From contig JAPDIY010000003.1 of the NCBI GenBank assembly GCA_029259335.1, positions 64,725-100,589 on the forward strand: a DNA stretch of 35,865 nucleotides. Reading direction: 5' to 3'. Of this stretch, positions 25,945 through 35,865 are shown one piece after another; positions within the stretch are counted from its first letter, which is position 1, and every line of letters starts with the position of its first letter. Origin of the DNA: Archaeoglobi archaeon (GTDB lineage: Archaea; Halobacteriota; Archaeoglobi; Archaeoglobales; Archaeoglobaceae). A model generated the notes under the pieces. It was not told the DNA's origin, did not search any database, and worked only from the letters and a program-made list of their open reading frames with translations. Both the position numbers and the translations under genes were made by a program.

Positions 25945-27207
25945 TTACCTGAAAATGTGCCTCTTATCGGCATCCATCCTTATCAGAGGCTTTGAAAGAT
26001 GTCTTCTCGCGGAAGGAGGGACTTCGTAGAATCCGGGTTCAATCTGCCTTATCACCCGCTCCCTGACTTTCTCCCTTGCAGTGGTCTTGCACCTCCTGCA
26101 TCTGAATCCCTGCCCTTTCCCAGCGGACTCCATTCTCCTCCCACACTTCTCGCACACAGGATTTCTCTCAACGTAAAGCTCGGCTACCTCAACGACTCTC
26201 AGTTTCTCCAGATTTATCGTATCTTTCTTCATCGAGCCATAAACCTCAACAACATCACCGGGCTTTAGCAGCCTCACAATGTTGCGAAACTGCTTTGTTG
26301 GTTCAAAAGCTGCACACATTATTTCCCCAAACTTCGTTTCAATTTCAAAAAACACATGCCCGCCCTCAATGTCGTAAGGCTCCCTCGCAACCCTTCCAGT
26401 TATGCGGTATGAGTGGTAGTTCTCAACTCTCTCCACACCATTCGCATCAATGATGTGCATATCAGTCGCGTGATTCGTTACAAATATCATTTTCCTGTCG
26501 TATGGCTCCGATTTAACCATGTTCAGGGCTTTATATAGAACTTCAACGCTTTCCCCTCTCAGGCCGTAAAGAACGGGACATGGAGTGTTCGGAACACAGA
26601 CAACACTTTCGTTGCACCAGTCAACGTTGTCAAAGGTCTCAGGATAAAGCTCGAAGTCCATGTCAAAAAAGCTCTCCTCATCGTACTCCCTCTCAGTCCC
26701 GAACCTTTCGGGAAATCTGTAGGCTATCAGCTCAAGCGTGAAATCATTAAGCTCTGCTCCCACAGCAGCCAGAGCTCCGATCAAACCTCTACCTTTCTTG
26801 TACTTCAGGTGGGGGATGAAATGCTTTCCTATAATGAACAGGGCCTCATCGAGCGTAACAACGTCCTTTATCGCCTTCTCGGCAAAGTCCTTGAGCTTAA
26901 CCGCAATGTCTTCATCAACAAAAACAGCTCCCGGATTTGTGTTCTCATCCTCAAGCATGGCATACTCAAGAATTATGTCATTTACCACATCAACGAGTTC
27001 ATCCCTGTCCTCAACATCCGCTAAAAAGCTCACCGCTCCGTTGCCTCTTGTTTTGTAGGGGATCGTTGGATTCAGCCTTATCAGTCTTGGAAAACCCTCA
27101 ACTCTGCCCAGATCCTTCTCAATCCTCTCAATGATGAGCGTTGCAAGATACGTCGTGCACATTCCTTTGCTGCTATCCGTGTCGTCAATTCCCACCCAGA
27201 CTTTCAT
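25945..27207 (-). CDS. tiaS: tRNA(Ile2) 2-agmatinylcytidine synthetase TiaS
   Basis: MKVWVGIDDTDSSKGMCTTYLATLI, LIRLNPTIPYKTRGNGAVSF, OB-fold and C-terminal zinc ribbon CEKCGRRMESAGKGQGFRCRRCKTTA. Confidence 0.95.
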   Translation of the reverse strand: MKVWVGIDDTDSSKGMCTTYLATLIIERIEKDLGRVEGFPRLIRLNPTIPYKTRGNGAVSFLADVEDRDELVDVVNDIILEYAMLEDENTNPGAVFVDEDIAVKLKDFAEKAIKDVVTLDEALFIIGKHFIPHLKYKKGRGLIGALAAVGAELNDFTLELIAYRFPERFGTEREYDEESFFDMDFELYPETFDNVDWCNESVVCVPNTPCPVLYGLRGESVEVLYKALNMVKSEPYDRKMIFVTNHATDMHIIDANGVERVENYHSYRITGRVAREPYDIEGGHVFFEIETKFGEIMCAAFEPTKQFRNIVRLLKPGDVVEVYGSMKKDTINLEKLRVVEVAELYVERNPVCEKCGRRMESAGKGQGFRCRRCKTTAREKVRERVIRQIEPGFYEVPPSARRHLSKPLIRMDADKRHIFR

Positions 27208-33525: not shown

Positions 33526-34278
33526 GGTGTGTCCGAATAAGCATCAAACAACATAAATAATTGAACAACTATCCACTCTCTTTTATGGTGATGGCGGATA
33601 TAGCAGAAAATAACTTGTTTGAGTTACTGAAAGAGTTTGACATCTTTGAGAGGAACAAAGTATCTATAGAAATAAAACTTGCAGCAATAGCGATGTACTT
33701 ACTCTCCTCAAGTTTTAGAAGAATCGCTTTACTCTTAAACGTTGGTAAGTCAACTGTCCATTACTGGATTGACAGATTCAAGGATGTACTTGACTCCGAA
33801 AGAAAGGAGGAAGTGAAGAAGCTTGCAATATCAAGAATTGCTGTAGATGAAACAATTCTGAAATATAATGGGAAGAAATGCTACCTCTTTGCTGCTTTAG
33901 ACGTTGAGAGGAACAAGGTCATCCATCTGAAGGTTTATCCCACAAGGAATGCTTTGACAGCCTATTCTTTCCTCAGAGAAGTCTTGAGGATGTGCGAAGT
34001 GGAAGAGCTGATTCTCGACAAAGGACCATGGTATAAAGATGCTCTGCAACGCTTGGGTGTTAAATTCAGGCACGAAAGCTTTGGAGAAAGGAGCTTAGTT
34101 GAATCCGTATTTAGCTCTTTCAAGCAAAGGGCTAAGATTTTCTTCTGCTCGATAACTGTTAACTTCAGAAGGAGGGAGAAGAGTGCAAGGTGGAGAAGAG
34201 CTTTAGAGTGTTGGAACAGGTTTTGCAGGATGTTCATGTTCTACTTCAACGTGGTGAGAGGATGTTATTAGGACAGGT
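33526..34278 (+). mobile_element. IS6-like insertion sequence, about 750 bp
   Basis: One transposase ORF flanked by imperfect inverted repeats: left TGTCCGAATAAGCATC (33530-33545) versus right-end reverse complement TGTCCTAATAACATCC (ending near 34275). Exact ends uncertain. Confidence 0.8.
33561..34271 (+). CDS. DDE transposase, IS6/IS240-like
   Basis: HTH (RRIALLLNVGKSTVHYWIDRF); DDE-type core AVDETILKYNGKKCYLFAALDVERNKVIHLKVYPTRNALTAYSFLREVL...LILDKGPWYKDALQRLGVKFRHESFGERSLVESVFSSFKQR. Confidence 0.9.
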   Translation: MNNYPLSFMVMADIAENNLFELLKEFDIFERNKVSIEIKLAAIAMYLLSSSFRRIALLLNVGKSTVHYWIDRFKDVLDSERKEEVKKLAISRIAVDETILKYNGKKCYLFAALDVERNKVIHLKVYPTRNALTAYSFLREVLRMCEVEELILDKGPWYKDALQRLGVKFRHESFGERSLVESVFSSFKQRAKIFFCSITVNFRRREKSARWRRALECWNRFCRMFMFYFNVVRGCY

Positions 34279-35120
34279 CGGCTTATTTCATCGAAAATTA
34301 CTGCATCTTTAACCCCTATTTCTCCAAGTGTTTTTCTCGCAATGTTGTAAAACAAGACCGCTGGGCTAATGTTACCTCCAGCAAAAATTCTCGTGTAATA
34401 TGTGGAGTTCCTGTATAGGTAAGTTTTGCCTGTTGCTCTTGGGCCGAATTCAATTAAATTGGAGTTTCTTTCGACAAGTGGTATTAAACGGGTGAGTAAA
34501 ACCAGCTTCTGCCTTGTGTCGTAAACCTTCGGATTCAATCCAAGGGTGTTAATTAAGACATCAAGCCACTCATCGAAAGTGAATTCGTCTCTTGCCTCTT
34601 TAAACAGGCCTATATCTGTGAAGGAGCACTGGAAAGGCTGGAAGTCCGCAATTAAAACGGGAGTCATCAGGGGATTTCCATCCCTATCCTTGGGAACGAT
34701 ATCGATAGCATATTTCAGCGTAACCAACCCCCACATTCCCGTGATGAGAAGATTCTCATGCTCTTCAACGAGTTCAAGATCTATCATGCAATCTCTGAGG
34801 GTGAGATTTTCAAGATGAGCTCTGTATGTTTGCCTGTGGATGTCTGTTTCAACTCTCACCTCGTCTATTATCATTATTTTGTCGAATTTCATCAGGTCTG
34901 AGAGTATTTTCTCCCTTTCTTTTGCCTCGTGGTAATATGTAGATATGAACTTCTGCAGTTTTTCAGCGTAGTTATCGCCAAATTTCTCGACGAATCTCGA
35001 TGCGAGGTTCTCTATTACATAACGGGGAAGCATTGTAAACTCCTGCTTGCTGGCTATCCTTTTATCAACGGCAAGATCACCGAAGACTGCTTTGATTTTG
35101 CTTGAGAGCATGTCAGTCAC
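34279..35120 (-). pseudogene. brxL: brxL (BREX Lon-like AAA+ protein), 5' portion only, truncated at the IS right end
   Basis: FTFDEWLDVLINTLGLNPKVYDTRQKLVLLTRLIPLVERNSNLIEFGPRATGKTYLY (Walker A) and VIFDEIS (Walker B region) match BrxL order and spacing. The frame then enters the IS terminal repeat and ends about 25 codons later. ATG 35111, preceded by GAGGTGA, is a likely start. Confidence 0.85.
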
Positions 35121-35865
35121 CTCTTAATCCTATTTCTGAGAAGAACAAGTCAAAAAACAACTCTGCCTTTTTAAAGACTTTCAAAGCATCTTTGTGAGTA
35201 ATTTTTATTGGTTTTGGATGTACAACAATGTTCCTCTTTTCACGTATAAATTCCAAATCTTTGAACACATCTTCTCCAAACGTGTTTTCAATTTCGGACC
35301 TCAATTCGTTTAGAATTTGACCAAAACTTCTTTCTCCCACTAAGGTCCCCTTTGAAACATGGAACATTAGACCTAAAATGGTCTCCAAAGCTTTTGATGA
35401 TTTTAAAATTATGTCTTTATAGCTATCTTGTGTTAATTTTGGTTTTGAAATAATAGATTTTGCCCTCTCTAACTCTTTTCTTGCCTCTTTTATCCTCCAG
35501 ATCTCATCAGAATATGCCAGAAAAGGGAACTCTTTTTTGAGAGCTTTTTCTGCGTTTTTTCTTATATTTTCCCACTCTTCGTTAAACTCGTCTCTATCTA
35601 TCCCGACTACATCTAAGAACTCTTGAACACTCAATACAATATCTTCGCCAGATTCATCTAAGATTTCCTTTATTAATTTCCATATTTCATCTTTTCTGAG
35701 GCGATACATCAATGGATCGACCACAATGAACTTTGAGAGCCTTTTAATGTTTGAATCCGCGTTTAACTTTTCTAAAATTGATTTTGCATTAATTTTTAGA
35801 ACCCAAATGTCTTCTCCTGAAAAAACAGTTGGGGTAAAAACTAATTCGAAAATTCTCCAACCCTC
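35113..35865 (-). CDS. Uncharacterised protein with C-terminal HEPN-like RNxxxH motif (runs off the window's right edge)
   Basis: The frame stays open to the window edge: EGWRIFELVFTPTVFSGEDIWVLKINAKSILEKLNADSNIKRLSKFIVVDPLMYR... The track start at 35724 is an internal GTG. C-terminal DLEFIREKRNIVVHPKPI contains R-N-x3-H in a helical context. Confidence 0.7.
   Translation of the reverse strand, partial: EGWRIFELVFTPTVFSGEDIWVLKINAKSILEKLNADSNIKRLSKFIVVDPLMYRLRKDEIWKLIKEILDESGEDIVLSVQEFLDVVGIDRDEFNEEWENIRKNAEKALKKEFPFLAYSDEIWRIKEARKELERAKSIISKPKLTQDSYKDIILKSSKALETILGLMFHVSKGTLVGERSFGQILNELRSEIENTFGEDVFKDLEFIREKRNIVVHPKPIKITHKDALKVFKKAELFFDLFFSEIGLRGD

Follow-up and report, generated by a model that had tools for sequence, protein, structure and literature searches.

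Two neighbouring genes at the right edge of an archaeal contig raise the question of what kind of system would place a HEPN-type protein directly before BrxL, an AAA+ component of BREX. The window, by which we mean the whole 35,865-nucleotide stretch that was analysed, comes from an Archaeoglobi archaeon, and its last position (35865) is also the end of the contig (C1) in a draft assembly (G000) of 101 contigs that is 89% complete. An initial annotation of this DNA proposed either a BREX variant or a minimal HEPN-BrxL module.

The gene pair and its interrupted brxL

Both genes lie on the minus strand, and brxL is cut short by an insertion sequence (IS); the initial annotation gave neither of these facts. 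The HEPN-domain protein gene is represented by its last 250 codons (35113..35865, minus), an open reading frame still open at the contig end, whose product is 88% identical to HEPN2 of an intact relative, L014, over residues 138-387 of the latter. Based on this relative, the 5' part beyond the contig end is estimated at about 137 codons. The HEPN domain proper (35131..35508, minus) corresponds to residues 257-382 of L014 HEPN2, and the catalytic-type motif RNIVVH (R-x4-H), with P as the next residue, is present near the C-terminus at 35218..35235 (minus), as initially reported. At the junction with brxL, which in sense orientation reads GGATTAAGAGGTGACTGACATGCTC, the HEPN stop codon TGA ends at 35113 and, after a one-base gap, brxL starts with ATG at 35111 or, less likely, with GTG at 35120. 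An SD-like GAGGTGA lies five bases 5' of this ATG, and all of these details of a BrxL-type AAA+ gene directly following the HEPN gene agree with the initial description. Compared with the L014 copies, dN/dS is about 0.12 for the HEPN gene (HEPN2) and about 0.03 for brxL; the former value indicates that HEPN2 is under purifying selection. Judged by these ratios and by the invariance of the motif residues in homologues, the pair is not a chance arrangement. Elsewhere in the window, a TiaS gene (25945-27207) gives an end-to-end match of high identity to the solved TiaS structures 4rvz/3amt, which are from A. fulgidus, and marks the host as an Archaeoglobus-like archaeon.

The 5' fragment of brxL (34280..35120, minus) is truncated after codon 277-280. 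Its product matches BrxL_N (4.9e-26), BrxL_ATPase (1.5e-47) and TIGR02688 (280 bits), the last only over positions 1-271 of 449, and it keeps BrxL_N together with the first part of the ATPase domain; the L014 protein has both domains complete. Walker A (GPRATGKT) is found at 34422..34445 and Walker B (VIFDE) at 34287..34301, both on the minus strand. The BrxL frame is lost about 2 codons further on, and 34281 is the last position homologous to the intact relative; everything after Walker B is gone, and the AAA+ domain is incomplete. The interrupting element is of the DDE_Tnp_IS240/IS6-like kind (33526..34279, plus), with the ends GGTGTGTCC...GGACAGGTC and a transposase reading frame at 33561-34271 (plus) with a likely in-frame ATG at 33585. 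Both ends are defined by the two other copies in the assembly (C42:13475-14226 and C24:19831-20584), which are about 88% identical to that of the window. An assembly chimera at the IS was considered, but a repeat-driven misjoin is unlikely with the other copies only 88% identical. The absence of a visible target-site duplication is uninformative because none is seen at the two other copies either. No brxL sequence was seen to the left of the IS, and thus part of the gene was deleted. Neither the 3' half of brxL nor any other BrxL sequence was found in the 89% complete assembly.

In Acinetobacter BREX, the BrxL Walker B mutant E280Q abolishes restriction, as does deletion of brxL (PMC10164562). 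Since the window copy has lost its 3' half and a single Walker B change is sufficient in that system, this brxL is probably non-functional. For the same reasons, it is fairly probable that the locus in this genome is a decaying relic without function, although the dN/dS values show that the genes stayed under constraint after diverging from L014, and the readable part of the HEPN gene is undamaged. A relic in this genome would be compatible with the explanation that we prefer for the family as a whole.

An intact relative and the HEPN protein

L014 (WGAO01000045.1) is the one locus in the genome collection that holds a close relative of the window pair. Its gene order is an EVE-domain gene on the opposite strand, a gene for a 110 aa protein, a 274 aa NucS-like/DUF5655 nuclease, a 1221 aa type IIG enzyme, HEPN1 (390 aa), HEPN2 (387 aa, the counterpart of the window gene) and BrxL (478 aa). 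The operon genes are in tandem, with an 8 bp overlap or 0-6 bp spacing, and HEPN1 and HEPN2 are 38% identical. PADLOC assigns the large protein to REase_MTase_IIG (PDLC03630) with 1195 bits, versus 55 bits for PglX. It carries the nuclease motif DALYGHVIIEYK and the methyltransferase motifs DPACGSGTF and NPPW, and it unites an N-terminal PD-(D/E)xK nuclease and an N6-adenine methyltransferase in one chain, as is characteristic of type IIG, in the domain order of Eco57I-like enzymes.

The contig that bears L014 is labelled as a Thermotogaceae MAG, and its genes are closest to Archaeoglobus-like archaea. That the contig is archaeal and was mis-binned or transferred recently is suggested by its GC content (38.6%, against 38.0% for the window edge and 45.8% for the whole window), by the 88%-identical HEPN protein and by IIG and EVE genes whose relatives are archaeal. 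In two distant loci (L014, 331-786; L065, 7151-7624), genes of this type IIG family have an EVE-domain gene as neighbour, and its product is possibly a sensor of modified bases.

The window's own assembly (89% complete) yielded neither the IIG gene nor HEPN1, so the form of the operon is carried over from L014. The missing 5' genes would then be the same as in L014, and we give somewhat better than an even chance to the reading in which a defence operon ordered [nuclease] - type IIG - HEPN1 - HEPN2 - BrxL is represented at the window edge by its 3' end, decapitated by the contig end and with its brxL broken by the IS.

The initial assignment of the upstream gene to HEPN is borne out both by the predicted fold and by the position of the RNxxxH motif at the canonical site. 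Full-length L014 HEPN2, which is 88% identical to the window protein where the two overlap, was used for structure prediction. The model shows a helical bundle with good confidence at residues 257-382 (pLDDT averages of about 76-92 over blocks of 10 residues) and pLDDT < 50 in the N-terminal ~250 residues (1-256). The top PDB matches of the helical domain in Foldseek are all HEPN proteins, namely AF_0298 (2hsb, TM 0.79 on target), HepT toxins and the sacsin HEPN domain, with E-values of 0.007 and up and a probability of 1.00; searching PDB sequences with the HEPN profile (A2) gave no match. The Pfam HEPN model PF05168 scores one homologue (L028) at 32.7 bits against a cut-off of 22, with another (L027) just below the cut-off and the window copy also below it. 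In an alignment with members 36-72% identical to L014 HEPN2, the residues R348, N349, H353 and P354 (L014 HEPN2 numbering) are invariant in four full-length homologues. When aligned via a homologue, the motif Arg coincides with that of AF_0298 (ReesdY), which has Tyr at the position of the His that is kept in the window/L014 family. The predicted four-helix fold and an Rx4-6H motif at the active-site position therefore place the family in the HEPN superfamily, and its members are putative RNases of the Rx4-6H kind.

In the MntA-HepT system, an RX4HXY HEPN protein is encoded next to an MNT nucleotidyltransferase, and the HxY tyrosine of HepT is the residue AMPylated by MntA. This tyrosine is missing in the present family, which has HPT or HPK instead, and L014 has no MNT gene. 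Compared with known HEPN RNases (PF05168, MntA-HepT, AF_0298), with which they share the fold and the R-x4-H at the canonical site, the window and L014 proteins are also distinguished by a length of about 385 residues, with an unrecognised N-terminal part of 250 residues, and by their place between IIG and BrxL. No HEPN homologues were found in viral contigs and plasmids.

The distribution of the family marks the HEPN protein as an accessory of IIG-brxL loci. The initial annotation had asked whether the pair recurs in archaea lacking canonical BREX genes; it does so in L014, but adjacency to brxL was found nowhere else beyond the window, and these two are close relatives. The HEPN gene is an orphan in G025 and G127, with no brxL beside it, and L070, L076 and L111 have brxL of this lineage but no HEPN. 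The full-length homologue in G025 (L015, 6534-7691; 72% identical) lies amid nitrogenase-like/cobalamin and other unrelated genes, with no adjoining brxL or IIG. In G090, about 5 kb separate the IIG gene from a HEPN gene upstream of it; we rejected this proximity as independent support, and it is probably coincidental because the related G127 keeps the same HEPN surroundings without an IIG. In G090 (below the Pfam cut-off) and in G212, brxL has a PIN-domain gene beside it or nearby, so that a gene of an RNase fold recurs in the neighbourhood of brxL although its kind is not constant. Genes of DUF6978/DUF1828 lie near brxL in G207.

These PIN and DUF6978/DUF1828 neighbours, together with the orphan HEPN genes, would fit a working unit of type IIG and BrxL, beside which HEPN and PIN genes are interchangeable RNase-fold passengers captured next to brxL. 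We consider this unlikely for HEPN in view of the two paralogues kept in tandem in the L014 operon, the last of them under purifying selection. More doubtful still is the initially proposed minimal module of HEPN and BrxL alone, for which one might think of BrxL controlling a HEPN RNase in the manner of a toxin-antitoxin pair. The one-base gap, the conservation of the pair in two relatives and the HepT toxins among the Foldseek matches are in its favour, but the L014 pair sits inside a larger tandem operon led by a type IIG gene and with a duplicated HEPN, each of the two genes is found without the other next to it, and both the HxY tyrosine and an MNT gene are lacking, making such a module improbable.

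A BrxL lineage linked to type IIG enzymes

The preferred reading, a type IIG-led operon, was examined in a census of 295 genomes of one phylum plus plasmid records. The counts among the 295 genomes were 5 for the HEPN family, 24 for the IIG family and 51 for BrxL, and IIG and brxL occur together in five archaeal loci: L014, L027/L033 (G090), L070 (G165), L076 (G207) and L111 (G212). In a maximum-likelihood tree, the window BrxL and those of the five IIG loci form one clade (100/99), apart from the long type-1-like and the short type-4-like BrxL proteins, and this was unchanged when bacterial BrxLs were added. Among representatives of the other clades, PglZ adjoins the short type-4-like and two long BrxLs, and BrxA/BrxB adjoin another long one. 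Because of this separate clade and these different neighbours, the window brxL is read from its phylogeny and surroundings as belonging to a third, IIG-linked BrxL lineage. No IIG-type BrxL was found in viral contigs, and IIG homologues on plasmids are at most 29% identical among the matches listed, with alignments that end before the C-terminal tail described below.

The IIG-linked proteins belong to the same family as BrxL of BREX types 1 and 4 (TIGR02688, BrxL_N and BrxL_ATPase), with the Walker motifs kept, and L014 BrxL is 33-36% identical to plasmid-borne BrxL. They differ in their clade, in having no Lon-like C-terminal domain (the L014 protein is 478 aa long), and in their partners, which are type IIG and HEPN/PIN genes rather than PglZ, BrxC and PglX. 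The initial suggestion of a BREX variant, here taken as one of type 1 or of type 4 with its other genes beyond the contig end, is largely refuted and highly improbable: BrxL is a BREX component, and a short BrxL without the Lon-like domain resembles type-4 BrxL (PMC12839542), but PglZ is absent from the window's genome (89% complete) and from L014, the L014 operon contains no BrxC or BrxB ATPase, its methyltransferase is of type IIG and not of the PglX type, and the window BrxL falls outside both the type-4-like and the long type-1-like clades.

Several further arrangements were observed. The G090 locus (L033, 227-5885) is a larger version of the IIG-BrxL locus, in which IIG is followed by another DNA methyltransferase gene, a gene of unknown type, a gene for a BrxC/D-like ATPase that matches BrxC_BrxD weakly, a PIN-like gene and a brxL interrupted by a single TAG. 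In two genomes, IIG and brxL on the opposite strand are separated by three conserved genes, whose products are 288, 278 and 174 aa long, the 174 aa one being a PIN protein (L111, 2890-10191, G212; L116, 5896-9267, G273). On plasmids of Thermus oshimai (pTHEOS01, L127) and Allomeiothermus silvanus (pMESIL01, L128), BrxL is found in a cluster of vWA - tubulin-like - unknown - BrxL - helicase (or exonuclease), which is a second non-BREX setting for BrxL, with no annotated PglZ. As in the IIG loci, no PglZ or BrxC is annotated near BrxL in the part of these clusters that was read, but their partners are different and their BrxL belongs to another clade.

The IIG enzymes themselves provide a possible link to BrxL. 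L014 IIG shares its domain order and its nuclease and methyltransferase motifs with known type IIG enzymes, but the IIGs of L014, G090, G165 and G207 have about 120 extra C-terminal residues. This extension is predicted to form a seven-stranded FnIII-like sandwich (single-sequence model, moderate confidence) and ends in an acidic, conserved stretch, e.g. KKVRKKDSLDDMLDELLG. It is present in all four IIGs with a same-strand downstream brxL and in none of the seven IIGs without brxL for which several kb of downstream sequence are available (Fisher p 0.01 when G212 is entered as an exception, in a statistic that ignores kinship). G018, of the same family, encodes an IIG 76% identical to that of L014 and has neither tail nor brxL. 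The exception, G212, has brxL and no tail, and represents the deepest branch of the BrxL clade; its IIG also lacks a recognisable nuclease motif, and brxL is not directly downstream. This co-occurrence suggests that the FnIII-like domain and acidic tail of the IIG enzyme probably dock BrxL.

Proposed mode of action and implications

In the mechanism that we propose, the IIG enzyme would methylate self DNA and sense unmethylated foreign sites, as expected from its family. Its C-terminal FnIII-like domain and acidic tail may then dock or load BrxL, an MCM-like AAA+ ring that, going by the DNA loading known for its family, would be placed on foreign DNA and stall replication. BrxL has been proposed to block DNA replication in BREX (PMC10164562). 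The HEPN proteins might cut RNA as a second, abortive backup layer when the DNA-level response fails, giving IIG, BrxL and HEPN as the presumed order of action. Taken further, the loci could represent a separate archaeal defence system whose single-chain IIG replaces PglX, PglZ, BrxC and BrxB and recruits its own BrxL lineage through the FnIII-like domain and acidic tail, with HEPN/PIN RNases as an interchangeable abortive layer; we put this forward tentatively, at rather less than an even chance.

The individual parts are known, and it is their combination that we could not find described. The 2026 BREX survey, in the parts considered here, describes BrxL as specific to types 1 and 4 and HEPN proteins as standalone auxiliaries, and those parts contain no description of an IIG-BrxL system (PMC12839542). 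A survey of archaeal restriction-modification systems makes no mention of BrxL, nor does the main text of a survey of archaeal immunity mention BREX, and no description of an IIG-HEPN-BrxL combination was found in open-licence papers. Another likeness is to the DUF499-centred BREX-related systems with HEPN fusions, which follow a similar logic of N6-methyltransferase, ATPase and optional HEPN (PMC12839542). They differ from the IIG loci, where the ATPase is BrxL and not DUF499 and the restriction enzyme is a single-chain IIG.

The IIG-BrxL loci contradict the restriction of BrxL to BREX types 1 and 4 that the BREX survey states (PMC12839542). In BREX, it is an open question what licenses BrxL to act on foreign DNA. 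The candidate tail tracks the presence or absence of brxL even between IIG enzymes that are 76% identical, and, if the proposal is true, a two-protein IIG-BrxL pair with a candidate docking tail would make the licensing of BrxL testable with far fewer parts than in BREX.
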